Source: an uncultured beta proteobacterium
GTDB taxonomy: Bacteria > Pseudomonadota > Gammaproteobacteria > Burkholderiales > Burkholderiaceae_C
Length of the DNA: 34,173 nucleotides
Direction: 5' to 3'
Assembly: GCA_903822205.1 (NCBI GenBank)
Contig: CAIJOK010000053.1
Coordinates: 1-34,173 of the forward strand
The notes beneath the pieces were generated by a model. That model ran no database searches. It worked only from the letters and a program-made list of their open reading frames with translations, and was not told where the DNA came from. The first letter of the stretch is position 1. Every line of letters starts with the position of its first letter. Shown here in pieces: positions 1 through 22,246 of this stretch. The position numbers were made by a program, and so were the translations under genes.

Positions 1-147
1 AATTGTGATGTTAAATTAAATAACTAATAATTGTCGTTATAAATCAACAACTTGCGATACTTTGGAAGTAGTATTTATAATAATTTCTTGATGAATTAAA
101 TTATTGCATTCAATGCCAAATAACTTTGTTGTTCTGACTTAGCAAAG
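1..147 (+). repeat. Dispersed AT-rich repeat, copy 1 (cut by window start)
   Basis: This stretch matches two other places in the window: 7751-8012 in the same orientation and 10484-10656 in reverse complement. Shared blocks include AAATCAACAACTTGCGATAC near 41-60, the segment GAATTAAATTATTGCATT near 93-110, and CTGACTTAGCA near 134-144. It keeps the palindrome GCATT-C-AATGC at 106-116. About 25 bases present at the left end of the other copies would fall outside the window. It begins 33 bases beyond the stop codon of the leftward radical SAM gene, so it may be a 3' flank of that gene or a leader of a gene further left. Confidence 0.75.
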
Positions 148-180
148 TAAAATAAAAAAACTTCAAATCCCACTCCAAAT

Positions 181-1998
181 TTATTTCAATGTTACATCCA
201 ATAGCAAATCAGCAATGCAAAATATTTTTTTAGCTTTAGAGAATTTATCTTCAATTGCATTTCTTATATTTGCAAAATATTGAGGAACAGCAACAACTAT
301 ACATACAATGCTCTCCTTTTCAATTACTTCAGGTGACTGAATTATTTTGCCAAATACATTCAAACCAATTCTTGCATCTGATGTGTCAACATAATAAATG
401 TTATCATTACTTAAATTTAATTTATCTGACAAACTATAAAAGTAGGAATTTATTCCCCAAAAAGCAATTTTAATATTTTTACCCAATAAATCAGCAATTC
501 CATTGTTTAAATTCATAACAACCGATTCAGGAATAGGCGCAATATGTCTGCTGCCACAATACTTACAAGTCAAACTCTCAAATATAAACAATCTGCACTG
601 TTCCCAGTTATTTACAGTACCACATCTAAAACATTCGCCCTTTATGTCAATATTTGCATTTTCATAATCGATATTTTTAACTTCAGTATTCTTTGGTTCA
701 TTCGTTGTCAATCTTGGCAATTTAACAACTTGTTCAATTAGCCACAAATACTCATCATTGCTCATTTTTGAGAGACGAACAACCGGGCAACCATCTTTAA
801 TATACTGAATCGGATCAGTTATTATACCATTTTTTATGGCGTATTTATATAAGACGGTCCCAGGGTAAGTTATAATTAAGCTAAGCATAAGCCCATAATG
901 TATATGTTCCTTCCACCAGTTTAGTGTCTTCGTTGCAGATTCAATGGTCTCCGCTGGATCTCCAAAAATAAGAACTCCCTGAATAGCAATTTTAGCATTA
1001 TAAACAAGATTTAAAGCCTTTTCCGTTTGCTCAATTGTTATTTTTTTATTCATGCTTTTTAAAATGCTATTATCTGCACTCTCAATACCAAAAGCCATGG
1101 TGGCAATATTGCCATGTTTGACAACGTCTATTAACTCAGAATTTATATCATTAACCCTAAAATTAGCCAGCCATTTGACATTATATGATTTAATACGACT
1201 ACAAAAATCCTTAACACGCTCAATTTTATACCCAAAAAGCTCATCCGAGATTGACAAAAATTTGATACCATATTTACTAACTAAATAATCAATTTCCATA
1301 AATACGTTATCAAGTGATCTTTGACGAAATTTTTGACCACTTGGATGAAAACAAAATGTGCATCTAAACGGACAAGATCGACTTGTAATAATTGATACGG
1401 TTCTATCTTCACTCATTCCAATAACGTTAGGAATAGAATTGAGCAATTTCCCTAACTCAAATCCTTCATAATCAGGCATTGGTATTTTGTCCAAATTTAC
1501 ACGTTTAACTTCTCCATCAGTAATCATGTAAATATCATTTTTTTTATATATAACGCCTCCAACTTTTTCTATGTTTAAATTATTTTCAAGTTCATTTTGC
1601 AAATTACAAATTATAAGTTCGCCTTCGCCAATAACACCGTAGTCAGCGAATTCAATAGCTTTCATGGCATTTTCAGGGTCACTTGTTATAATGCCGCCAC
1701 CTGCAATTGTTATTATTTTTGGATTAATAATTTTTGCACAATATAAAACCTCCCTAATTGCTCCGTACTGGCCAGTTAATCCACCCGTGGATACAATATC
1801 AATACGAAATTTATCTATATATTTTTTTAATATGTCACTTGTCTTTTCTGTTCTGTGATTAAGGTTCAATGTATAAATATTAAATCCTGCGCTTTTAAGG
1901 CTGGATGAGATGTATGCAATTCCAAGGGGGAATTGATACCAATCACCAACTTGGTTGACTATTCGGGGCATAACCAGCAAATGATTAAGTTTACTCAC
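181..1998 (-). CDS. B12-binding radical SAM protein with zinc-ribbon and Rossmann-like tail
   Basis: Predicted cobalamin-binding radical SAM enzyme of about 605 residues. The first ~150 residues form a B12-binding-like alpha/beta domain (PLGIAYISSSLKSAGF; IAGGGIITSDPE), although I see no clear DxHxxG cobalamin ligand. The radical SAM cluster motif CxxxCxxC is at C209, C213 and C216 (SRSCPFRCTFCFHPSG). A four-cysteine knuckle follows at C456/C459 and C478/C481, and residues ~507-605 look like a small Rossmann domain (KIAFWGINSYFYSL, then YYVDTSDARIG). I chose the GTG start at 1998 because AGGGAG lies six bases upstream; an in-frame TTG at 2028 is possible but has no such site. Family members methylate unreactive carbons or catalyse other radical chemistry; the substrate here is unknown. 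The polysaccharide context suggests a sugar or lipid-linked glycan. Confidence 0.85.
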   Translation of the reverse strand: MSKLNHLLVMPRIVNQVGDWYQFPLGIAYISSSLKSAGFNIYTLNLNHRTEKTSDILKKYIDKFRIDIVSTGGLTGQYGAIREVLYCAKIINPKIITIAGGGIITSDPENAMKAIEFADYGVIGEGELIICNLQNELENNLNIEKVGGVIYKKNDIYMITDGEVKRVNLDKIPMPDYEGFELGKLLNSIPNVIGMSEDRTVSIITSRSCPFRCTFCFHPSGQKFRQRSLDNVFMEIDYLVSKYGIKFLSISDELFGYKIERVKDFCSRIKSYNVKWLANFRVNDINSELIDVVKHGNIATMAFGIESADNSILKSMNKKITIEQTEKALNLVYNAKIAIQGVLIFGDPAETIESATKTLNWWKEHIHYGLMLSLIITYPGTVLYKYAIKNGIITDPIQYIKDGCPVVRLSKMSNDEYLWLIEQVVKLPRLTTNEPKNTEVKNIDYENANIDIKGECFRCGTVNNWEQCRLFIFESLTCKYCGSRHIAPIPESVVMNLNNGIADLLGKNIKIAFWGINSYFYSLSDKLNLSNDNIYYVDTSDARIGLNVFGKIIQSPEVIEKESIVCIVVAVPQYFANIRNAIEDKFSKAKKIFCIADLLLDVTLK

Positions 1999-2004
1999 AA
2001 ATTT

Positions 2005-2010
2005 CTCCCT
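2005..2010 (-). promoter_or_regulatory. Ribosome binding site fixing the start of the B12 radical SAM gene
   Basis: AGGGAG on the minus strand, six bases before the GTG at 1998. It favours this GTG over the upstream in-frame TTG. Confidence 0.6.
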
Positions 2011-2233
2011 GCCATTGGTTGCTAACAATACGTATCGTTACATCCTGCTAATAATTAATAAACTACTTGTCATATCGCTTTATATAATTATAAAGCATTA
2101 TAATCTCAGGTTGTGCAGTTTTGCATTTGATTAATCAACAGAAAAATCACAAATCAATTATATCGTTGCGCTTATAAAAACCACTATCGAATAAATCTCT
2201 CAGGAAACTTGATGATCATGGTATATAAATTCA

Positions 2234-3358
2234 TTAGCCTGTGGTATTAACCAATTTTTTAATTGCCGCATTATTGATCGACTCCATCATCGATAACCCC
2301 TCAAGTGCTTTCTCGGCCGAGTAAACAAAGGGATTTATAGGTTTCTTTCCAGCTTTAAATTCTCTCACGTCTTCAGCTATATCTGCGTAAAGATTTGCAA
2401 AAGCTTCAATAAAACCTGATGGATGCCCAGCCTTGAACCGGTTGTATCGTGTCTCTTGTGCAGTTTTAGCCTCACATGAACCACGGTCAATTGAATACTG
2501 GCGACCCTCATTGTCAGCCCATTTGAGGTCTTCCGGTTTCATCTGATACCACTCCGCACTGGCTTTATCACCAAATACACGAACGCGCAGTCCATTTCTA
2601 TAGCCAAGTGCCGTCTTTCCCCACCATGCCTGAACGCGTAGGTTCTTCTCATATTGTGCAAAACAATAAACGTTATCTATAATACCTCTGAATTTTCCAT
2701 AACTGGCTTGTTCACCTGACAATAGAACAGGTTTCAATCCATTGGATAAAAAATCAATCAAATGGTGAACATGTACCCCAAGGTCAAGGGAAACAGTTGG
2801 TACCGCATAGTCACAACGCCGCCAGTATTGTGGGTTTGCATTGTCTCTCAGGTAGCCCTCTTGAGGCATTTCAATATGAATTTGATGCAGGGTTCCTAAC
2901 AATCCTTCGCTAATCATGCGTCGAAGTTCACGTACCATGGGATAACCTGAATAATTAAAAGTAACAGCAAGGTATTGTTGAAATTTATTTCTGGCATCAA
3001 TTATACGTTGACACTCCTCACTGGATGTACCTAGTGCTTTTTCGCAGATCACGTTATAGCCTGATTCTAGTGCTACAATTACAATATCAACATGACTGGG
3101 TGTTGGGGTCAAGATGACGACTGCGTCCAATTGTTCCCTTTCTTGATCCAGCAATGATAACCAGTTAGTATAAGTACGCTGCGGACTAACCCCATATATA
3201 TGAGCCGTTTTTTCGTTATTTTCAACATCGCGACTAAAGCATCCAGCTACAACCCTAAAATGCCCATCAAGACGGCTGGCATTAAAGTGTGTATGGCCTA
3301 CAGCAGAGCTCACAGCTCCGCCTATAAAAGCAATATTAAGAGATTGTGTAATGGGCAT
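2234..3358 (-). CDS. Gfo/Idh/MocA family NAD(P)-dependent oxidoreductase
   Basis: A 374-residue sugar-type dehydrogenase. The N-terminal Rossmann fold starts with NIAFIGGAVSSAVGHTH (residues 8-24), a variant of the glycine-rich nucleotide-binding loop. The family EKP-type motif appears as EKAL (K107), and the catalytic Asp/His region is SLDLGVHVHH (D192, H196). Such enzymes oxidise or reduce nucleotide sugars, inositols or related polyols; the exact substrate is not readable. I prefer the ATG at 3358 (MPITQSLN), which puts the Rossmann strand at the usual distance from the start; in-frame ATGs at 3373, 3379 and 3391 also exist. Its start overlaps the last 23 bases of the upstream ATP-grasp gene, implying translational coupling and a joint role in making one polysaccharide substituent. 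Confidence 0.88.
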   Translation of the reverse strand: MPITQSLNIAFIGGAVSSAVGHTHFNASRLDGHFRVVAGCFSRDVENNEKTAHIYGVSPQRTYTNWLSLLDQEREQLDAVVILTPTPSHVDIVIVALESGYNVICEKALGTSSEECQRIIDARNKFQQYLAVTFNYSGYPMVRELRRMISEGLLGTLHQIHIEMPQEGYLRDNANPQYWRRCDYAVPTVSLDLGVHVHHLIDFLSNGLKPVLLSGEQASYGKFRGIIDNVYCFAQYEKNLRVQAWWGKTALGYRNGLRVRVFGDKASAEWYQMKPEDLKWADNEGRQYSIDRGSCEAKTAQETRYNRFKAGHPSGFIEAFANLYADIAEDVREFKAGKKPINPFVYSAEKALEGLSMMESINNAAIKKLVNTTG

Positions 3359-4529
3359 AGTTATCTCGTGCATATTCATCTGGAGATACATGATAAATTT
3401 TACGTTCTAATGTCGCGTTAAATAAATTATTAAATTCATTCACTGAGTCAGCCTTTGCAAAAAGAACTGCAATTCTTCCAGCAGGACTTGCACATACTTT
3501 ATCACCAGCAGAACTGATTGGCACTAATCTCTCAATCTGCAATGGAGTGTGAAATTTAATAAAACCAAGTATGCAGTCAATAGGTTGTGAAATGGTATGG
3601 CGCATGATTAATTTAGATTCGTTCGATGACAATATTGCTAATGGCATATCAATAAATGAGCGTACATAGTTCTCTGCGTAGTTTGTTCCAGTAGAAAGCT
3701 CTATTAGTTGGCTGTACAAATCGCCTGGACAACGCCGTGTCACTTCAATTAACCAGTAATCTTTACCTTTGACTATCAACTGGGTATGTACAAGACCATC
3801 TTGCAAATTTAACTCTTTTGCCATTGTCCTCACATTTTCTCGGAGTTTCATCAGCATTTGTTGAGAGAAATCGTATCTGACTCTGCTGGTATCAACCACA
3901 AATGGATTAGCCGTACAGTGCTCTTCAACTATGTAGTCGATCAGCACCTGCCCTCTCTGAATAAATGCACTATGGCTATACAGTTGGCCTTGAACGTAGT
4001 CTTCAATAATATAGGTTTTTGAAGATGAAAACTCGATAGCACGTGCAGCGGCTATTGAAAGATGGTCTCGATCCGATTCCTGAATAATCGTAATTCCGCG
4101 TCCACTGTACGCATCGACGGGTTTTACAATCACAGGCCATTGTGTACCAATTTCTTCTGGGGACAACAAAGCCGGAACAGGCAAACAATGCTTCTGAGCA
4201 AACCTGCGAAACTTTTCTTTATTATTGATCGTAGCGGTTGTTTGGGTTGTATCAATTCCTGGGTAGCGACCGTCATGATTAAGTGCTGCACAAATCATGT
4301 ATGAGCGATCATTGCATCCTGGCACGATATATTTAATATCACGTTTTTTGATCAATTCCTGTACTTTGTTCAGGTTTGAATAATCTATTTTTTCGTATAG
4401 CGCCACACATTTTGCTAAGCAATCCTTTGGATTGCTGCCAACCACATAAACACTGTGACCTAATCGAACAAGGCAATTGTATATAGGGACTGATGAGAAG
4501 TTCGTATCAATTAATAAAATATTACTCAT
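3336..4529 (-). CDS. ATP-grasp domain ligase, polysaccharide-locus type
   Basis: A 397-residue protein with ATP-grasp architecture: a pre-ATP-grasp alpha/beta domain (NILLIDTNFSSVPIYNCLVR), a nucleotide-binding strand PVIVKPVDAYSGRGITII, the hinge segment EDYVQGQLYSH, and the metal-binding strand LIEVTRRCPGD. ATP-grasp enzymes couple ATP hydrolysis to joining a carboxylate to an amine, thiol or similar nucleophile through an acyl-phosphate. In a surface-glycan locus a reasonable inference is amide formation between an amino acid (or carboxylated sugar) and an amino sugar. The gene overlaps the downstream Gfo/Idh oxidoreductase by 23 bases. There is no strong ribosome-binding site before the ATG. 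AT-rich codon use matches the rest of the island and differs from the core genes to the right. Confidence 0.85.
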   Translation of the reverse strand: MSNILLIDTNFSSVPIYNCLVRLGHSVYVVGSNPKDCLAKCVALYEKIDYSNLNKVQELIKKRDIKYIVPGCNDRSYMICAALNHDGRYPGIDTTQTTATINNKEKFRRFAQKHCLPVPALLSPEEIGTQWPVIVKPVDAYSGRGITIIQESDRDHLSIAAARAIEFSSSKTYIIEDYVQGQLYSHSAFIQRGQVLIDYIVEEHCTANPFVVDTSRVRYDFSQQMLMKLRENVRTMAKELNLQDGLVHTQLIVKGKDYWLIEVTRRCPGDLYSQLIELSTGTNYAENYVRSFIDMPLAILSSNESKLIMRHTISQPIDCILGFIKFHTPLQIERLVPISSAGDKVCASPAGRIAVLFAKADSVNEFNNLFNATLERKIYHVSPDEYARDNYAHYTIS

Positions 4530-5200
4530 TCTGTATTACTAAATAACAGCCAGCAAGATCTAATGGATTAAATTTGCAAAATATATTTGTCAATGAAATT
4601 AATATGAAACTTAACTCATATATTTGTAAGCAAATCAAAATAAAGCAAAAAAATGGTTCTCGATTCACTAGTTGCAATTTTCATTGCACTCGCTCGCAAG
4701 GCAAAAATAATAATTTTCATAAGTTGTTGAAGATCTACAACAAAATACAAATATTTGATAATAAATTTACGAATTTGCTAATGATAAATAACTTAAATTT
4801 ATTGACCTACAACATAAAAATGACAATTTAAATTGTTCTCAATGAACTATACGCTCTTTTCCATCTACCACATGTGGCACAAGAATACCTTCTCACCCAT
4901 AAATTCCGACCGCAAACGCGCTTATGGATTTCGTATATATTGAAATTTACAAACATGTATCACACTATTTGCGCAGATAATGCTGACAGACTGCAGATAG
5001 ATTATTGCAATTTTTTGATTGTTATTTAAATTGATAAGAAAAAAATTGGGATTTTTGAATTATTGTTTTACAGTTATTGGGTAGTTAAGCGACTCCATTT
5101 CCTTGGCGTTACTATCACTAATTACATTATTCATCACGACACAAACATACCAATTAAATTACAAGGCAGCACACATAACTTTAATCGTGACAGCGCTCTG
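4530..5200. other. AT-rich intergenic gap, no convincing gene
   Basis: 671 bases between two leftward genes. Rightward reading frames here are low-complexity Asn/Lys/Ile runs and look non-coding. One leftward 42-codon frame (4828-4956) contains RRYSCATCGRW, a single CxxC knuckle, and could be a remnant of a lost gene; it has no clear ribosome-binding site. No tRNA, CRISPR array or copy of the dispersed repeat is visible. Confidence 0.5.
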
Positions 5201-7627
5201 CTAAATGATAATTCGCCTTATAACGCGCATATCGTTGATTCCTAGTTTAAGCAATTTGTCGTAAATATACGGATATCCTTGGGTAGCGGCAATAACAATA
5301 GGTAAATTGTCATTCAGCAAAATATGTGGTGATAAAACTGGATACCCTAAATATTTTGTTCCAATCTTGCTAATAGTGTCGTCTACAAAATAAGACACTT
5401 TTGATAATTGAAAAAAAAATGAGTTTTCGTACATATATTTCGCTTGCAAGCCGGCACCCCAAATGACAACCACTGGATAGTCACTAGAGTCAGCCAAAGC
5501 TGATTCATGACTAATATCTCTTAGGGTATGTTTAATACTTATTATTTCGTGATACTGAATGCTACCCAAACGAATACGAAGCAAATCATCGATAAAAACA
5601 GAAAGATGCCCGTCGCGAATCAACATATCGTGCATGAGTATAATCAGTATTATTGTCTCTAGTGATACGTATTCATCGTTAAAATTTCCACTTATTTGAA
5701 AATTGCACCCCACTAAATCGTATTGCTTGATCAAGGTGATAAAACAATTCACTTCGTTAAGTGATGAGTTTTTTTCAGTAAAAATATACTTGATTGTAAC
5801 CTGTTTTGGGTTTAATAAAACATAAATTTTAAGGTTTTCCATGACTTGTTTCAATTTAGCTTTACCTCGAACCAACTTAAAGGTTTCTGCTGTTCCAGCA
5901 TCAATACTTGTAGTTATTGTCACATAGTTTCCTTTAAGCAAGTTTGCCACTGTTTTTGAAAATTTAACAGCATTGGTCAGAATGCGATGTGTTGCATTCG
6001 GTAATTTGTCAATCATATTTTCAATTAGGGACGTAAATTGCCGATCAATGACAGGCTCACCCCCACCCCAGACAACAGTGTAGCAGCTTTTCAAATGACC
6101 ACGTTTAATAAGCTCATTTATTAGATATTCAATATCATAGTTTACTTTTAGACCACCATAATAAGCTTTGCTGCAATAATGGCATCTTAAGTTACATACG
6201 GAATGGTATTCGAATGATATATAGAGAACATCAAGATAATCTTGATGTTTCCATTCCTTAAATTCTAAAAATGGACAACCCTCACAATTAGTTTCATCTC
6301 CACGATTGATCGCATCTCGCAATTGGCTTTTCGCAATAGCTATATCATCTGGATCAAGTGTTTGACCCGGCTCAACTTTCAGCAAAACGACATCTCCGTG
6401 AATGTTTCCTTTGTAAAAAAAACGTTTACAACATGTTCGAACTTCGTTGGGTCGCAGAAAAACAGAGTTTTGAATATCTACACAGCTCCATGATTTACTT
6501 AAAATAGATGGCATTAAATTATTTATTTCTTCAGCTTTATCAACGTCATTTAATTCAATTTTCTTCATTGTGTCAATAAATAAATTAGCAAGGAACCCGT
6601 ATTTCGTATCTTGAATAGGAATAGATAATTGTAACTCTTTAGTTATCATCAGAACCTGATCAAACAAGCATCTGTACAGTTGTGCAGTATGTTTATCATC
6701 TGTCCAGCGATAAATTTCACGAAGTCGCGTCGCAATGACTGCATTAACCCCATTTGCAAAATAATCCAACAATGTATCCGTTTGTTTCCCAGCATTGTTT
6801 CGTATGTGATTTCCTATGGCTAACCATGCTCTTGTGAAACCAGTTATGTGATTTTCACTGATAGAATTAACAATTGAATTTTGTCGAGATATCTTGCCAT
6901 AAAGAACCTTACCAATATAACGGAATCCTCTTGCGTACCAATAGACATAATACAAAAAATCAACGTCTTCATGAATGCCAGCAAAAAACCTTATATTGTT
7001 TTGAAAAATCATCTGACGTCGTATCGATGTATAAATCACAGAGCCATCGGTTTGGAGACATAGATATCGCTTTAGCAATTCGTCACGTCCCTTGAGTAAA
7101 TGCACATGATCTTTTCGCAACCCATGCGTAAGGGATCCCGTTAAACCTTGTCGCTGTAAGTATGTCCAGTTAAACGCTACAATATCAAAAGTTTCTCCGT
7201 TACACTGGATTTCGTACTTCAAATCGGAAAGCGTTGTCGGTACTAGACAGTCATCACTATCTAGAAATAGAAGCCAATCGCCTTTCGCCAATTCAATTCC
7301 TACATTGCGTGCAGTACCGGGACCAGAGTTTTGTAACGTAGTTGCAATGCGGAAATTGTCATGGTGAATGTATGATAGTAAAATATCACGAGTATTATCT
7401 GTTGAACAGTCATCGACCAAAATGACTTCAAAAAACTCTATTGAAAGAGTCTGAGCTAAAATACTATCAATAGCATCACCTATATAAGCAGCAGCATTCC
7501 AGATAGGTACAATGATAGAAAACAAAGGAAATCCACAACGATTAATCGCGTCGAGATTTTCTTGCTTTACTTGAGATTTTCGCTCATCGTTGTAATTATT
7601 ATTGCTATCAACACATTTAATATCCAT
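5201..7627 (-). CDS. Family 2 glycosyltransferase-radical SAM-Rossmann fusion protein
   Basis: An 808-residue three-part protein. Residues ~35-250 are a GT-A fold family 2 glycosyltransferase: FSIIVPIWNAAAYI, then VDDCSTDNT at 71-79 and the metal-binding DSDD at 123-126. After a helical linker, residues ~395-455 carry CC (399/400) and CEGC (448/451), which could bind an additional cluster or metal. The radical SAM domain follows, with CNLRCHYC (C478, C482, C485) and GGGEP at 521-525. Residues ~717-808 form a Rossmann-like domain (VVIWGAGLQAKYMYE; YFVDDTISKIG; PIVIAATQGY). I chose ATG 7627 because GGAAG sits six bases upstream; an ATG at 7660 lacks a site. Transfer of a sugar by the first domain is likely; the radical reaction and substrate are unknown. 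Confidence 0.88.
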   Translation of the reverse strand: MDIKCVDSNNNYNDERKSQVKQENLDAINRCGFPLFSIIVPIWNAAAYIGDAIDSILAQTLSIEFFEVILVDDCSTDNTRDILLSYIHHDNFRIATTLQNSGPGTARNVGIELAKGDWLLFLDSDDCLVPTTLSDLKYEIQCNGETFDIVAFNWTYLQRQGLTGSLTHGLRKDHVHLLKGRDELLKRYLCLQTDGSVIYTSIRRQMIFQNNIRFFAGIHEDVDFLYYVYWYARGFRYIGKVLYGKISRQNSIVNSISENHITGFTRAWLAIGNHIRNNAGKQTDTLLDYFANGVNAVIATRLREIYRWTDDKHTAQLYRCLFDQVLMITKELQLSIPIQDTKYGFLANLFIDTMKKIELNDVDKAEEINNLMPSILSKSWSCVDIQNSVFLRPNEVRTCCKRFFYKGNIHGDVVLLKVEPGQTLDPDDIAIAKSQLRDAINRGDETNCEGCPFLEFKEWKHQDYLDVLYISFEYHSVCNLRCHYCSKAYYGGLKVNYDIEYLINELIKRGHLKSCYTVVWGGGEPVIDRQFTSLIENMIDKLPNATHRILTNAVKFSKTVANLLKGNYVTITTSIDAGTAETFKLVRGKAKLKQVMENLKIYVLLNPKQVTIKYIFTEKNSSLNEVNCFITLIKQYDLVGCNFQISGNFNDEYVSLETIILIILMHDMLIRDGHLSVFIDDLLRIRLGSIQYHEIISIKHTLRDISHESALADSSDYPVVVIWGAGLQAKYMYENSFFFQLSKVSYFVDDTISKIGTKYLGYPVLSPHILLNDNLPIVIAATQGYPYIYDKLLKLGINDMRVIRRIII

Positions 7628-7633
7628 GAGTAG

Positions 7634-7638
7634 CTTCC
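7634..7638 (-). promoter_or_regulatory. Ribosome binding site fixing the start of the glycosyltransferase-radical SAM gene
   Basis: GGAAG on the minus strand, six bases before the ATG at 7627. It decides against the in-frame ATG at 7660, which has nothing similar upstream. Confidence 0.55.
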
Positions 7639-7750
7639 AATAAATCTTGTTCTTCAGCATTGACTGACTTGCGAAATCAATAATTGAGCATAATAACTAG
7701 GAATAATAGTAACTTGGAATACCCCAATCAATCACCTGTTATCAGTTATA

Positions 7751-8012
7751 CCATTCAAATTCTTTATCATTGACCTAAAACCGTAAGTTTAAATTCATCT
7801 ATTTGTGTTTCGTTGCTTAAAATCAACAATTTACGATGCTTTGAAGGTTGTATATTAGACAGTATTGGAAACCTACCTGCGATTGTAGGAAAATCAACAA
7901 GTTAGCAAAATCAAAGAATAGGCTTCCAATAAAGTCTATTGCATAATTTTTTTTCGTAAATTAAATTTTTGCATTTAATGCTGCATAACTTTCTTTTTCT
8001 GACTTACATAAT
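7751..8012 (+). repeat. Dispersed AT-rich repeat, copy 2, with internal insertion
   Basis: The left part (7751-7855) contains TTCTTTATCATTGACCTAAA, which is exact in the reverse complement of copy 3, then AAAATCAACAA and ACGATGCTTTGAA. The right part (about 7949-8012) contains TAAATTAAAT, the palindrome GCATT-T-AATGC at 7971-7981, and ATAACTTTC...CTGACTTA. About 80-90 bases between them (roughly 7856-7945) are absent from copies 1 and 3, and include a second AAATCAACAAGTTAGC motif, as if part of the repeat was duplicated or something was inserted. It fills most of the 457-base gap between the aminotransferase and the glycosyltransferase fusion; I see no gene in that gap. Confidence 0.75.
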
Positions 8013-8084
8013 GGCAATTTTTTTTGCTTACAGATTTGTAATCTTTTGTCAATTGTATAGTATTTGTTGGATGATGAATTTATT

Positions 8085-9194
8085 TCAAGCATCTTCCATC
8101 ACTCGAACAATGTACTCAACCGTTGTCAGATCCAAGTCAGGATAAATTGGAAGGCACAAAACCCGCTGTGCGGCAGATCGTGCGTTGGGTAAATTGTTAG
8201 GATGTGCAGAATGCAGCCCACGGTACATTGAAAAATCAGAAATCAAGGGGTAAAAATATCGACGAGGGTGAATTTTCTTGGTCTTAAGTTTTTTGTAGAG
8301 TTCATCCCGTGTGAGGGGGTAGTTTTCACTGACAAGAATGGGATAATAGGCATAGTTGGAACGTTTTTCACAACCTGGTGGCAAACATGAAATTCCTTGA
8401 ATGCCATCAAGTAACTTACGGTAGAGTGCATCTATATTTTGGCGAGCGGTAATGGCTTGATCTATATATTTTAACTGCAATAAGCCCAATGCCGAATTAA
8501 ATTCACTCATTTTACCGTTGATGCCTGCAGCCACTACGGTGGTTTCACCCACAAAACCAAAGTTTTTAAGCTGGTCAATGCGTACTTTGGTTTTGGCATC
8601 TGGGCAAATGATAGCGCCGCCCTCAAACGTGTTGAAGACCTTGGTGGCATGAAAACTGAGGACAGAAAGATCACCATGTCGCAAGATGCTGCCGTTTTCG
8701 TCATTCACGCCAAAAGCATGGGCGGCATCGTAAATGACCCTAAGGTTGTAGTTGTCGGCTATGGTTTGGATGGCCTCCACATCACAAGGGTGACCATAGC
8801 AATGCACGGGCATGATGGCTGTGGTACGTGGCGTGATGGCAGCTTCTATTTTGTTGGGGTCAACGTTCAGTGTTTGAGGATTAATATCAACAAAGACGGG
8901 TTGAATGCCATTCCACAAAAGCGAATGCGAGGTCGCAACAAATGAGTAAGGTGATGTGATCACTTCACCGTTAATACGCAAGGCTTGCAGCGCAGTGATA
9001 AGGGCAATGGTGGCATTGGTGAACAACGCGATGTGTTCAACACCTAAATAGCTACATAATGCGTCCTCCAATGCTTGGTGAAAGGGTCCGCCATTGGTCA
9101 GGTTTTTGCTTGCCCAAATTTTTTCCAGATAAGGAATAAATTCTTCAAGCGGTGGCAAACAGGGTTGGGTGACGTAGATGTCTTTAGCTGTCAT
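8085..9194 (-). CDS. DegT/DnrJ/EryC1/StrS family sugar aminotransferase
   Basis: A 369-residue PLP-dependent aminotransferase of the fold I sugar-transaminase family. The PLP-binding aspartate is in YDAAHAFG (D156), and the Schiff-base lysine is K185 in SFHATKVFNTFEGG. The N-terminal substrate motif is VTQPCLPPLEEF, and the substrate loop LTNGGPFHQALE is present. Enzymes of this group transfer an amino group, usually from glutamate, onto a 3-keto or 4-keto dTDP- or UDP-sugar. The sequence is reminiscent of VioA/WecE-type 4-aminating enzymes, but position specificity cannot be settled by eye. The start ATG at 9194 has an AGGT eight bases upstream. Its product could be an amino sugar used by the ATP-grasp ligase in the same locus (inference). 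Confidence 0.92.
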   Translation of the reverse strand: MTAKDIYVTQPCLPPLEEFIPYLEKIWASKNLTNGGPFHQALEDALCSYLGVEHIALFTNATIALITALQALRINGEVITSPYSFVATSHSLLWNGIQPVFVDINPQTLNVDPNKIEAAITPRTTAIMPVHCYGHPCDVEAIQTIADNYNLRVIYDAAHAFGVNDENGSILRHGDLSVLSFHATKVFNTFEGGAIICPDAKTKVRIDQLKNFGFVGETTVVAAGINGKMSEFNSALGLLQLKYIDQAITARQNIDALYRKLLDGIQGISCLPPGCEKRSNYAYYPILVSENYPLTRDELYKKLKTKKIHPRRYFYPLISDFSMYRGLHSAHPNNLPNARSAAQRVLCLPIYPDLDLTTVEYIVRVMEDA

Positions 9195-9410
9195 AAGGTG
9201 TGACCTGGCTCATTGGTAACAAAAGCGAGCACTGAATTGACGTGCAATGTACCAGAAATGTGCTGTAGGTTTGTTGTATTTGCAGTGCGTCGTTTGCATT
9301 GCTTGGGTTGCCAGCTTGAGCAGCTACGTTATTGAAGTCGATTTTGTACATAAAACAGACAAACTGTTGCTGGTCATCAGTAGTTTGAATAAACGGCTAC
9401 TTTTTGATCG

Positions 9411-10163
9411 TTATCGTCTTCTTAAAATGGCTGTAAGACTTAGGCCGAAAGGAAATGAAACCAATTTTTCAACTTGCTTTTCAAATGGTATAACGTATTT
9501 ATCATAAATGCCACCCTTATTTTTGACAAGATTCAATCCTTCATCTGACTTGAGAATAATTTTTCTCATCTTGAAAAAATACCAGGAACCGAAAACTCCA
9601 ACGGGATCTTGATACCAAAGTTTTGTTACCTCGAATTTTTTGGTATCAATTTTGGAAAGCAGTATTTTTTTATTGTATCGGCGATAATGCCCCAGCATTT
9701 TATCGTGATTTGAATACAAGAATGGCATTGCTGGTACTTCAATCAGAACATAACCACCCGGATTCACAAAATCATATAAGTAATCCAGCGCTGTTTTATC
9801 ATGTTCAATATGTTCCAATACATGAATCAAAATTGCAGTGTCAAAAATCCCTGTCTTATCAATATTCAAATCAAACAGATCGATGCATTCAAAGTTAACG
9901 AAGTCAGGGAATTGAAAGTTTGAATAGTGCGTTTCATACAATGTTTTTGAGGGTTCGATGGAAAGCAAATTCTGGACGTTTTTGTTTTCATGCAACAACT
10001 GTTGAGTAAAACTTCTGTCGCCACTGCCAACTTCCAGAATATTTGTGCCAATATACCTTCCAATTAAATCGTATTGATATTTTCTATAATTCCTCATGTC
10101 ATTAAAAGAAAAGACACCTTTTCCCCAATCCATACCATGAACGTACTTGTCTTGTTGGTTCAT
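9411..10163 (-). CDS. Class I SAM-dependent methyltransferase
   Basis: A 250-residue Rossmann-fold methyltransferase. Motif I is NILEVGSGDRS (residues 41-51); the acidic end of the next strand is LLSIEPS, and the later motif is HVLEHIEHD followed by PGGYVLIEVPAMPFLYS and LGHYRRYNKK. The last pattern is common in methyltransferases found beside glycosyltransferase genes. It uses S-adenosylmethionine; acceptor unknown, probably a sugar or lipid-linked intermediate. I chose ATG 10163, which has GGAG nine bases upstream; the longer TTG frame starting at 10178 would overlap that site. It is the first leftward gene of the AT-rich locus. Confidence 0.85.
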   Translation of the reverse strand: MNQQDKYVHGMDWGKGVFSFNDMRNYRKYQYDLIGRYIGTNILEVGSGDRSFTQQLLHENKNVQNLLSIEPSKTLYETHYSNFQFPDFVNFECIDLFDLNIDKTGIFDTAILIHVLEHIEHDKTALDYLYDFVNPGGYVLIEVPAMPFLYSNHDKMLGHYRRYNKKILLSKIDTKKFEVTKLWYQDPVGVFGSWYFFKMRKIILKSDEGLNLVKNKGGIYDKYVIPFEKQVEKLVSFPFGLSLTAILRRR

Positions 10164-10350
10164 TAATTTAAACTCCAAAACGCAAACATTTAACCACCTG
10201 AGTGAATCAATGCATCCATTGGTCAGATTTTAACCCGATATTTTCGCATTGTTGCTTGGTGTGAGTTGATCTACGAGTATAGGATGTTGATTGAACTAGT
10301 TTTTATGGCCTTTTCAGTCACCCCGAATAATGAAAGATGGCCACGCTTAG

Positions 10351-10376
10351 GTCGGGTTAGAGAAGCCTAACCCGAC
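10351..10376. repeat. REP-like palindrome A (inverted partner of B)
   Basis: GTCGGGTTAG and CTAACCCGAC form a perfect 10-base-pair stem around a six-base loop. It is preceded by AG, giving AGGTCGGGTTAG, the mirror image of the CTAACCCGACCT at the end of palindrome B. The two together form a head-to-head pair like the bacterial interspersed mosaic elements built from REP units. Confidence 0.75.
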
Positions 10377-10401
10377 TGGCTCTATGTTCTCACGGGGTGA
10401 T

Positions 10402-10429
10402 GTCGGGTTACGGCTTCGTCTAACCCGAC
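10402..10429. repeat. REP-like palindrome B
   Basis: GTCGGGTTA and TAACCCGAC pair as a nine-base stem around a ten-base centre containing GGCTTCG. This is the form of many REP elements seen in proteobacteria. It lies 25 bases after palindrome A, in opposite orientation, between the methyltransferase start and the third dispersed repeat. It could act as a transcript end or a RAYT transposase target; no RAYT gene is in the window. Confidence 0.75.
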
Positions 10430-10483
10430 CTACAATATTCGCTATGGTTTTTGAGTTCTTTCACATTAACAGGGGGTTATAAT

Positions 10484-10656
10484 CTGCTAAGTCAGATAAA
10501 GAAAGTTATTTAGCATTGAATGCAATAATTTAATTTACCAAAAAATTGTTCAAGATGTCACTTTCAAAGTATCGTAAGCTGTTGATTTTTATAGCTAAAC
10601 ACGAATAGTTGAATTTGATCTCACAATTTTAGGTCAATGATAAAGAACTTGTATGG
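10484..10656 (-). repeat. Dispersed AT-rich repeat, copy 3 (reverse orientation)
   Basis: Read as reverse complement, this 173-base stretch aligns with copies 1 and 2 throughout. It contains TTCTTTATCATTGACCTAAA, AAAAATCAACAGCTTACGAT, TAAATTAAATTATTGCATT, and CTGACTTAGCAG. The palindrome is GCATT-G-AATGC at 10513-10523. It lies at the outer edge of the AT-rich locus, in inverted orientation to the other copies, and lacks the extra segment of copy 2. Confidence 0.75.
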
Positions 10657-10684
10657 CCTAACTTACCAACCTCTTACTGTTCAT

Positions 10685-10936
10685 CTATGTTATTTTGACC
10701 ACTTCTTCGATTGACATCCCTATGTCCTGCATATCTCACGCCATTTCAGTTTTTACCTTGTCCCTGCCACTTTTAAGACTTACCTCAGTGCCCTCTTTAC
10801 GCCCCTTGATATGAACCATGGCAATGGAAGATCTTTGAAAAATAATAAAACCCCTGCGTTTGAATTGAATTTTCAATTCTTCAAAAGATAACCCCGCCAT
10901 ATTGCCAATGGCAACGGCCTGCGTGTGTTCATGCAT
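10685..10936 (-). pseudogene. Decayed gene with Rpn/PD-(D/E)XK transposase-like tail
   Basis: A leftward frame of 66 codons ends at a TGA (10736-10738); the same frame continues for 16 sense codons to a TAG at 10685. Read through, the tail is GRKEGTEVSLKSGRDKVKTEMA-stop-DMQDIGMSIEEVVKIT. This matches the pattern of repeated G-R-x-E-G units and the (A/E)xxMLxxGxSIEExxxITGLS ending typical of Rpn-family recombination-promoting nucleases and related PD-(D/E)XK putative transposases. A CGA to TGA change would explain the internal stop. The catalytic domain is not visible upstream, so this is a truncated, inactive remnant. The reading rests on pattern memory only. Confidence 0.45.
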
Positions 10937-11489
10937 CAGTTGCCCACGATGCGGGAACTCAAAGCTTACTTACAAAACAACGATGAACCAGTCATTCTGT
11001 ATGCTTGAAATCTACCAGCATTAACGCAATGCGCAAATGAGAAATGCCCACAGATGAACAGTAAGCATTTTGACACCCCTGCGACTGCTTCACTAGCTGA
11101 TTCAAGTAGTTGATTTCCATAGAATGCAACTCCGTTCAGACCAAAAATGAGGGGGATCTAATCGGTTAGGATGCCCAAACGTGTGCGATGACTGGGTCTG
11201 TGGGCTGCTTGTCATGTTTAGCGGGCGTTGTCGTAAAATTCTGCGTAACATGTTGATTTCATTGGAATACGGGAATTGTGAAAATTCGACAAGTGATTGA
11301 TAACAAACAATTTTTCATTTATTCACCAACACCTTTTCAATGCGTTGGATGTGTCAATTTTGGGCAAGATCGTACACCATGCGAGCGAGATGCATCCTTT
11401 GTTATCAACTGAAGTTGCTTGAGTTTTCACAGCTATAAGATCTTGGCTTGTCGCACAAAAACGTTAACTTAACAAATGTCCTCACTTTC
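10937..11489. other. Intergenic stretch at the island edge, nothing coding recognised
   Basis: About 550 bases between the decayed nuclease remnant and the pilin accessory gene. Composition is intermediate between the AT-rich left side and the GC-rich right side. No long open frame has a recognisable product, and I see no tRNA or integrase that would mark an island attachment site. A short rightward frame at 10940-11008 (26 codons) is not supported as a gene. Confidence 0.4.
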
Positions 11490-20224: not shown

Positions 20225-22246
20225 ATGGTTACGCATTCATCTCTCTTGTCTTATTTGAAAGAGTACTGGATTAGACAATCCGTCGAACGAATTGCCTATA
20301 CAGTTTCAGTATTACTCCTTGTTATTCCTGTTTGGATTGCAGATTTTCCGCCGTTTGGTGATATCCCTCAACATGCAGCACAGGTTTCTGAGTTTCTGCG
20401 CTATCTGGAAGGAAATCCGTCACCATCCTTTACTATTAATTTATTTACACCGTATATTTTTGGGTATGTACTCACAGCACTATTTGCGCTTGTGTTACCG
20501 TTGGTTGTCGCCATAAAACTCACTTTGTCTGTGGCAATCGTTGGATTTCCAATCGCTTGCTGCTGGTTAAGACGTGAGTCTGGCGGAAAACCGTATTGGG
20601 ACTGGATGATATTACCAACAGCGTATAGTTTTTCATTGGAGTGGGGTTTTCTCAACTTTATCATTGGAGCGCCTATAGCGATATTTTTAATTGCAGCGAG
20701 CTTAAATCGTGATCGGGCTGCATCATTGCGCAATGAATTTGCCGTTTTTTCATTGTCACTGCTGCTTTTTCTAAGTCATATCATCCTGTATGCCTTTTTT
20801 TGGGGGATCGCCTTTCTTATACTGGCCACACGCTTTGAGAATTTTACAATTTTATACAAACGTTTGCGGCCATTATTGTTATCTGCTGTATTGGTTCCTA
20901 TTTGGTTGGCCATGATATCCAGTGGTGAAGCAAAAATGATTCAGGGTGTTTTCTGGGGTCTGGAACCGGGGAGATTTTTTGAGCTACTTGTATTGCCACA
21001 TCTCTGGCCATTGGATGCTGTTCATGTGTCTGTATCTTTACTATTGCTCGCATTTCCTTGGTTCACTGGTGGACGCATGATCTGGCGGCGAGCACACAGC
21101 TTGTCTGCCGTCGCATTCCTGGTAGGATTTATGTTTCTCCCCAACGGCGCTTATGGTGCATCGTTGGTATTTCAGCGTTTTGCTGTATTTCTGATTCCAT
21201 TTTGGCTGCTTCTTTTCGTACCAAGAAAAGGTGACGCTGTAGCGTTATCACAAGGGCAAAAAATATTGACTGCTATTATGGTTATCTTGGTGTGTATTTT
21301 TTCGTGCAGCCTGGTCTATCGAAGAGCAGAAAATTACATGGGATTGTCCAAAGATTTTTCAGATTTTCGAGTTGTTATTTCACAAATGCGACCTCATGCC
21401 AAAGTGCTTTCTCTTCCCTTTGATCATGGTGGCGAACAATTTCCAGGACGGATTTTCGCGCATTTCGCTTCTTGGTATCAAGCATTCAATGGTGGTACGA
21501 CAGACCCAAGCTTTGGAACTCTTTATCACATGCTTGCAAGATACCGTCTGGAACAGTTGCCTCCGGTGAGGCTTGGCTTCGAAGATGCAGCTTCATCTTT
21601 TGACTGGGCTCGGCATAGAGGCGATGAGTACGACTATTTTCTGGTTCATTCATTTTCAGACAGAAATATGACTGAATTTAGTAAGTCTGCTTGTCCCATC
21701 GAGTTGGTTAAGCACGTGGGTGGGTGGTGGCTGTATGCACCGGTCGGTACGCACGATAAGCGCTGTTCAATCAAACGTCATCCGCATAAAAATTTTATGT
21801 TTTCCAACGTCATGCGTAGCAAAGATTATCCAACTTCTGACAAAGAATTTGATATGATGCATTTGAATCCAGTAGCGCCATTGGACAACATGAATCAGTA
21901 TCAATGGAAAAAAATTGATGGTTATCGTCTATTTGAATTGGATATAGATTTGGCTGCTGATCGTGGTAATACCGATTATAAAACAACCTACGTTTATGCC
22001 GAAATGGATGCAGGTCCAAGCGCTGTGGATGTTGAATTGGAATTGGGATCAGACGATGGCCTGACAGTTTGGCACGAAGGTCATCGCATTGTGTATGCAC
22101 CCAACCAGTTGCGAGCTGCAAAATGGGGGGATAACACCGTCACCGTTTTGCTTCAACCAGGCGTGAATCACTTTTTATTCAGAATCAATAATGCCGCTGG
22201 GGGATGGCGACTGCTTGGAAGAGCTGTCGCTGCTGCCAACCAGTAG
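20225..22246 (+). CDS. Polytopic membrane protein with C-terminal beta-sandwich-like domain
   Basis: A 673-residue protein not assigned to a named family. Residues ~20-360 hold about ten hydrophobic segments with an early luminal-type loop DFPPFGDIPQHAAQVSEFLRYL, which is reminiscent of GT-C membrane glycosyltransferases. An acidic residue in that loop would be the usual catalytic base, but this is inference. A soluble part follows (residues ~370-560). The last ~110 residues contain VELELGSDDGLTVWHEGHRIVY and VLLQPGVNHFLFRINNAAGGW, the pattern of carbohydrate-associated jelly-roll domains. Base composition is clearly lower in GC than its neighbours, suggesting later acquisition. Start ATG 20225 follows GAAAG. 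Confidence 0.7.
   Translation: MVTHSSLLSYLKEYWIRQSVERIAYTVSVLLLVIPVWIADFPPFGDIPQHAAQVSEFLRYLEGNPSPSFTINLFTPYIFGYVLTALFALVLPLVVAIKLTLSVAIVGFPIACCWLRRESGGKPYWDWMILPTAYSFSLEWGFLNFIIGAPIAIFLIAASLNRDRAASLRNEFAVFSLSLLLFLSHIILYAFFWGIAFLILATRFENFTILYKRLRPLLLSAVLVPIWLAMISSGEAKMIQGVFWGLEPGRFFELLVLPHLWPLDAVHVSVSLLLLAFPWFTGGRMIWRRAHSLSAVAFLVGFMFLPNGAYGASLVFQRFAVFLIPFWLLLFVPRKGDAVALSQGQKILTAIMVILVCIFSCSLVYRRAENYMGLSKDFSDFRVVISQMRPHAKVLSLPFDHGGEQFPGRIFAHFASWYQAFNGGTTDPSFGTLYHMLARYRLEQLPPVRLGFEDAASSFDWARHRGDEYDYFLVHSFSDRNMTEFSKSACPIELVKHVGGWWLYAPVGTHDKRCSIKRHPHKNFMFSNVMRSKDYPTSDKEFDMMHLNPVAPLDNMNQYQWKKIDGYRLFELDIDLAADRGNTDYKTTYVYAEMDAGPSAVDVELELGSDDGLTVWHEGHRIVYAPNQLRAAKWGDNTVTVLLQPGVNHFLFRINNAAGGWRLLGRAVAAANQ

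Follow-up and report, generated by a model that had tools for sequence, protein, structure and literature searches.

The protein encoded at positions 5201–7660 of the 34,173-nucleotide stretch of DNA analysed here (the window) carries a GT2 glycosyltransferase domain and a radical SAM domain in one polypeptide. Its most satisfactory explanation, to which we give a probability of about one half, is a two-function protein-glycan enzyme, one activity attaching an N-acylated amino sugar and the other tailoring it through radical chemistry. A protein-glycan (or surface-glycan) role is well supported. The glycan likely sits on a protein, and the balance tips towards the sugar as the substrate of the radical step. 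The features of the fusion protein are as follows.

5201..7660, minus strand: GT2 / Twitch-like / radical SAM / Rossmann-like fusion protein, one uninterrupted open reading frame of 819 amino acids.
7627, minus strand: alternative start at the second ATG (residue 12 of the 819-aa form), giving 808 amino acids.
7175..7519, minus strand: GT2 domain, residues 48–162, PF00535 (Glycos_transf_2) 4.1e-29.
6251..6496, minus strand: Twitch-like five-cysteine region, residues 389–470, with C393, C410, C411, C459 and C462.
5822..6202, minus strand: radical SAM domain (Pfam extent), residues 487–613, PF04055 3.3e-15, with C489, C493, C496 and GGGEP at 532–536.
5204..5473, minus strand: C-terminal Rossmann-like domain, residues about 730–819, placed by likeness to the C-terminus of a neighbouring protein.

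The original prediction had put a GT2 and a radical SAM domain in a single frame. Both Pfam matches (4.1e-29 and 3.3e-15) do lie in one open frame, at 102 bits for PF00535 (cut-off 23.3) and 57 bits for PF04055 (cut-off 29.5). Residues are numbered here on the 819-aa form; C478/C482/C485 of the 808-aa form become C489/C493/C496, GGGEP 521–525 becomes 532–536, and C399/C400/C448/C451 become C410/C411/C459/C462. The GT2 motifs comprise a DxD at 134–136, inside the Pfam match, and an HED at 230–232, just beyond it. Relatives were compared in an alignment of 11 rows (A12), which omits the twelfth known fusion, L237, as this is split over two loci. DxD (D134 and D136), HED and GGGEP are invariant in all 11 rows of A12. 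Eight of the 18 cysteines in the window protein, and no more, are likewise unchanged in every row: 393, 410, 411, 459 and 462 upstream, and 489, 493 and 496 of the radical SAM motif. Conservation of these last three in homologues, on which the prediction depended, is thus complete. Assembly error, the other danger it had named, is ruled out by 12 distinct full fusions: the same architecture recurs in two other bacterial genomes and on phage contigs, in nine distinct phage sequences, so that the fusion is real.

The five upstream cysteines agree in spacing and position with an N-terminal Twitch domain, which holds an auxiliary Fe-S cluster. The spacing C-x16-CC is identical in 12 of 12 fusions; between the last of these five cysteines and the radical SAM motif lies a gap of 26 or 24. 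Five N_Twi sequences fetched for comparison have C-x17-CC; in N_Twi_rSAM proteins (NF033640), as here, a CxxC follows about 46–50 on, upstream of the radical SAM motif. These proteins differ in that the members read have no GT2 and that their cysteine region is not significantly alike: hhalign scored the five-cysteine region against N_Twi at 13.8, a value surpassed by 5 of 40 column shuffles, so the homology is not significant. The N_Twi set aligned well to the SPASM domain (94%, 1.2e-7). The NF033640 model gave the fusion 46 bits against a cut-off of 170, aligning only the radical SAM part. Because the profile comparison was no better than column shuffles, the region is named Twitch-like and not Twitch. 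The four cysteines that had been predicted as an additional CC...CEGC set are invariant and gain a fifth, C393, absent from the earlier list; profile comparison gave no confirmation that the set is homologous to Twitch. Judged from its sequence, the region likely holds an auxiliary Fe-S cluster. The usual SPASM/Twitch form, a C-terminal cysteine-rich extension, does not occur, there being no conserved cysteine past C496 in the 11 rows.

The predicted C-terminal nucleotide-binding-like domain fared less evenly. A GxG motif is present in the part concerned (residues about 730–819), which matches no Pfam family at E 0.01. In a single BLASTP comparison it matched the C-terminal end of the neighbouring B12/radical SAM protein (5e-4), and we read it as a Rossmann-like fold. 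As it is shortened in the phage rows of A12, it is probably accessory.

The best 25 of 60 NCBIfam matches all lie far below their curated cut-offs, and a MoaA orthologue is ruled out by score (TIGR02666, 53 bits against 284). Six solved-structure matches include MoaA, 5wgg (1.5e-6), SkfB (2.1e-5) and, ranking below these three, cytosylglucuronate decarboxylase (3.4e-4). The last is a sugar-acting radical enzyme, and its presence favours sugar chemistry. Entry 5wgg ('Radical SAM domain protein') we take to be a peptide maturase.

The gene is surrounded in the window by the following neighbours.

181..2028, minus strand: B12-binding radical SAM protein, PF04055 5.9e-17 and PF02310 7.4e-15.
2234..3391, minus strand: Gfo/Idh/MocA oxidoreductase, PF01408 9.7e-16.
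3336..4529, minus strand: ATP-grasp ligase, PF13535 1.2e-10.
8085..9194, minus strand: DegT aminotransferase, PF01041 1.6e-99.
9411..10178, minus strand: SAM-dependent methyltransferase, PF13489 1.6e-10.

The DegT protein is nearest the NCBIfam model DesI (289 bits, cut-off 650), and the models nearest the Gfo/Idh protein are sugar or inositol dehydrogenases. The B12-binding radical SAM protein has two extra CxxC pairs and the fusion-like C-terminal domain. The GC content is 36.2% at 1–10200 and 56.6% at 11400–34173; this AT-richness suggests that 1–10200 is an acquired island, which reaches the contig end at window position 1. About 1.3 kb at 10179–11447, between the island and a TfpZ pilin-accessory gene, has no frame above 66 aa and is perhaps the island border. 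Elsewhere in the window, a 673-aa frame at 20225–22246, within a stretch of 43% GC, matches no Pfam or NCBIfam model. Among the window proteins scanned there is no flagellar or Maf gene and no GT41, nor did the window show a recognisable ACP or VioB-type gene. Of the viosamine-type set (aminotransferase, NeuD/VioB-type acyltransferase and ACP), the window has the aminotransferase only.

The rest of the genome encodes four proteins with a flagellin N-terminal domain above the Pfam cut-off. Its only PseI match (113 bits, cut-off 340) is on contig C124, where a run of NeuB-like, TPP enzyme, SDR, radical SAM/SPASM, methyltransferase and epimerase genes stands near the contig end (L210 9468–16963); NeuB and radical SAM are named by model match, the rest partly from translations. 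A join of C124 to the window contig was sought by gene order: no DnaX, RecR or TfpZ match was seen near the place of GlcD in five genus relatives, a weak test, since in two of these relatives GlcD itself was missed by the simple ORF picking. The ends of the two contigs have no 15-mer in common.

The fusion gene is rare among the genomes searched. In 1,608 genome look-ups (a count that includes some genomes repeatedly; thresholds 1e-7 to 1e-20), no genome other than the window's own, G771 and G905 showed a full fusion. The full protein was used as query against 61 relatives, and the radical SAM half or alignments against 369 genomes of the class, 398 of the phylum, 196 of the family and 295 of the order of G771, and 289 of the window's own family. 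Among the matches listed for the 61 relatives, the best E-value in any other genome was 8.1e-24, for GT2. Class and phylum searches returned weaker matches in one and fourteen genomes, at 22–28% identity across the radical SAM core. Of four weak order-level matches (L202–L205), L202 and L203 were read by us as MoaA. A genome-contig scan with a two-row alignment, with patterns falling in GT2, gave no new fusion in 80 of 535 confirmed loci. Nor was a standalone radical SAM half present among 957 stop-to-stop frames (at least 400 aa) of 284 loci, a sample biased for this purpose, having been gathered by GT2, radical SAM, Gfo/Idh or family queries. All 35 frames with a strong radical SAM match (above 270 bits; many are copies) also carry the GT2 part, and the best of 24 frames without GT2 reached 49 bits for the radical SAM half.

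The fusion of G771 (770 aa) is 40% identical to that of the window and that of G905 (806 aa) 43%; over these two and the nine phage sequences, identity spans 28–43%. Both genomes hold Gfo/Idh, DegT and ATP-grasp genes in the same island. Their Gfo/Idh proteins are 44% (G771) and 51% (G905) identical to the window's, DegT 43% and 30%, and ATP-grasp 34% and 27%; at values as low as 30% and 27%, orthology is uncertain for the DegT and ATP-grasp proteins of G905. Maf glycosyltransferases occur in both islands (PF20157, 5.3e-39 in G771 and 7.4e-114 in G905), as do flagellin-like proteins near the fusion (1e-114 and 1e-57, both under the model cut-offs). PseB, PseC, PseI and PseG of G771 and PseC, PseF, PseI and PseG of G905 exceed the NCBIfam cut-offs; for PseI (cut-off 340) the scores are 363 and 510 bits. 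By these gene contents the fusions of G771 and G905 lie within flagellin-glycosylation islands. For G771, G905, C124 and the phage loci, a number of the gene names are read from translations.

Searched with the radical SAM half, the 2.9 million contigs of IMG/VR yielded four full-length relatives. A 7-row alignment found 16 loci there: these four as strong matches, and twelve weak ones (22–31%). With Gfo/Idh as query, 13 viral loci were found, six of one type (A) and seven of another (B). The fusion is on the same contig in 11 of the 13 (type A 4/6, type B 7/7), and conversely all four type A contigs from the radical SAM search, and all seven type B contigs, carry Gfo/Idh. Searching with the type B half returned the same seven contigs. 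Over the compared half, three of these do not differ, so the distinct phage fusions number nine. The fusion is missing from two loci: L270 ends within Gfo/Idh and may duplicate the L263 phage, whose scores it shares, and L262 has other frames for 1.3 kb past ACP, to the contig end. The phage nature of the loci is indicated by endolysins (L236, L237, L239), tail protein (L239, 2e-210), tail-fibre protein (L266) and RecT and YqaJ recombination proteins (L285); for L238, L261, L264, L265 and L269 it rests mainly on IMG/VR membership. No fusion was found with a single protein as viral query, and none that was new in 80 of 326 loci of a two-row alignment scan. Among named phages, the whole type A protein has matches in 53 records, but in no record does the match extend across 80% of the protein; for the radical SAM half there was one weak record. 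Plasmids yielded two weak records. Two faecal Gfo/Idh records (H19, H20) have no fusion alongside.

The two types of phage locus differ in gene content. All six type A loci contain GT41 and AMP-ligase; five contain LbH acyltransferase, four ACP and three methyltransferase (MT24). By Pfam, the phage gene next to the fusion encodes a methyltransferase. DegT is present in all five type A loci tested (two partial at the locus edge, a third starting late); the L237/L263 contig, where none was seen, breaks off within GT41. Two type A loci have a confirmed 4,6-dehydratase-like protein. Aminotransferase, acyltransferase and ACP all occur in type A phages, the acyltransferase being a candidate of NeuD/VioB type (135 bits, under the cut-off of 160.8). 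The order fusion, Gfo/Idh, ATP-grasp is kept in all five distinct type B loci. A short DegT-like frame stands upstream in four of them (none was seen in L269, and another frame intervenes in L265); that of L266, the sole one run against Pfam, scored 39 bits over part of the profile. Several further glycosyltransferase-like genes accompany type B fusions. An A-type Fe-S carrier (PF01521, 1e-19) lies at L266 8269–8592, directly after the ATP-grasp gene and near the fusion. Across the survey of three bacterial and nine phage fusions, then, Gfo/Idh, usually DegT, and an amide-forming gene recur, and the common denominator of the partner genes looks like an acylated amino sugar.

In both the fusion tree and the Gfo/Idh tree, the phages separate into one supported group for type A and one for type B, and the three bacterial rows fall unresolved between them. 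The ATP-grasp tree places the window protein, which is 46% identical to that of L266, with the type B phages (98/98) and away from G771 and G905; a very long branch for G905 leaves the rest of that tree unsure. This pattern is compatible with phage–bacteria exchange, in either direction.

The proposed mechanism has the following stages. (i) Neighbouring enzymes would make an activated amino sugar by way of the Gfo/Idh dehydrogenase, the DegT aminotransferase and an amide-forming step. (ii) The amide would be formed by ATP-grasp, or by an acyl (AMP) ligase with carrier protein (ACP) and NeuD/VioB-type acyltransferase. (iii) The GT2 domain would attach the amino sugar to a protein's glycan, for example that of flagellin. 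(iv) The radical SAM domain would abstract a hydrogen atom from the sugar or acceptor and then tailor that molecule, assisted by an auxiliary Fe-S cluster bound to the five upstream cysteines. (v) In type A phages, the protein-bound glycan could be begun by an NGT-like GT41 and extended by the GT2 domain. That sugar transfer is coupled to radical modification had been predicted from the domains alone; the idea is plausible and has gained a context of amino-sugar type genes, flagellin islands and phage GT41.

For the radical step itself, a BtrN-like two-electron oxidation serves as a first guess, and a tentative one. BtrN, of butirosin synthesis, oxidises an amino-cyclitol by two electrons and has an auxiliary cluster with four cysteine ligands (PMC9012708); oxidation is favoured on account of these two properties. 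Like the fusion, with its five conserved cysteines, BtrN combines radical SAM with an extra cysteine region and has an aminotransferase in its pathway. Its Twitch domain is C-terminal, by contrast, it lacks GT2, and it gave no sequence match to the fusion among the matches listed. In the Pseudomonas syringae viosamine island, N-acylated viosamine is added at the end of the flagellin glycan by a set comprising DegT-type aminotransferase, acyltransferase, ACP, methyltransferase and glycosyltransferase (PMC3927599). Type A cassettes likewise hold DegT, NeuD/VioB-type acyltransferase, ACP and methyltransferase, whereas the seven-gene table of that source has neither radical SAM nor Gfo/Idh, and has a keto-acyl synthase and reductase instead of AMP-ligase. 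The sfmABCDE flagellin-modification operon of Shewanella oneidensis includes an ATP-grasp protein and a methyltransferase (PMC3765264). The order NeuB, TPP, SDR, methyltransferase on C124 recalls that cluster; the operon as described has no radical SAM, GT2 fusion or Gfo/Idh. Homologues of the HMW1C/NGT protein N-glucosyltransferases (GT41) belong to the type A cassettes (L236 1316–3151, L238 9–1877, L239 16–1533, L262 2074–3915). That of L236 (PF18071, 1.2e-12) matches the protein N-glucosyltransferase model NF049992 along its length at 352 bits, below the cut-off of 1000, and those of L238 and L239 are 72% identical to it.

The radical SAM domain could instead modify the acceptor protein itself, as a peptide maturase, with GT2 glycosylating the same protein. 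That 5wgg and SkfB outrank the sugar enzyme among the solved structures fits such a role, as does the protein glycosyltransferase homologue of type A phages. The neighbours are sugar and acyl enzymes, however, and no precursor-peptide gene was recognised among those read, and we consider this unlikely. The same phage homologue, being a cytoplasmic protein-glycosyltransferase, weighs against another improbable target, a lipid-linked surface polysaccharide (O-antigen or capsule) in place of a protein. GT2 enzymes often serve such pathways, the other GT2 genes of the window genome sit in AT-rich clusters, and type B loci hold several more glycosyltransferase-like genes; yet flagellin islands with Maf surround both of the other bacterial copies.

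Within sugar chemistry, a non-oxidative radical reaction (elimination, deamination, decarboxylation or epimerisation) on the NDP-sugar before GT2 transfer is also conceivable, for which DesII, cytosylglucuronate decarboxylase and the radical epimerases would be the models. DesI acts before the radical SAM enzyme DesII, and DesI is the model nearest the window DegT; the decarboxylase is among the structural matches. Set against this, no DesII model appears among the best 25 of 60 NCBIfam matches, and the acylation genes suggest that the amino group is retained. C652, one further well-kept cysteine, is invariant in the 7-row alignment but Asn in the five type B rows of A12, which weakens it as an epimerase hydrogen donor. 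We regard all these variants as doubtful.

No glycosyltransferase–radical SAM domain fusion was found described in the open-licence literature, a limited statement. The two halves stay together in the material examined, the catalytic motifs are kept down to 28% identity, and the fusion travels with amino-sugar type genes in bacteria and phages; together these make radical tailoring of a protein-bound sugar directly testable. They point to a phage-borne gene set resembling a cytoplasmic protein-glycosylation pathway. A bolder proposal, possible but with the odds somewhat against it, is a radical glycosyltransferase, one polypeptide that would both attach and radically rewrite an amino sugar and would be the hallmark of a protein-glycosylation cassette that moves between flagellated bacteria and tailed phages. 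If so, phages carrying the cassette may re-sugar host surface proteins or their own fibres, altering adsorption.

Other unusual radical SAM fusions were encountered among the loci. At L223 1426–3990, an ABC transporter ATPase, by our reading of polysaccharide-export type, is fused to an N_Twi radical SAM protein, and further N_Twi copies lie beside it on the contig. At L218 1–2160, on the minus strand, a radical SAM protein with a SPASM-like end is fused to an apparent polysaccharide pyruvyl transferase.
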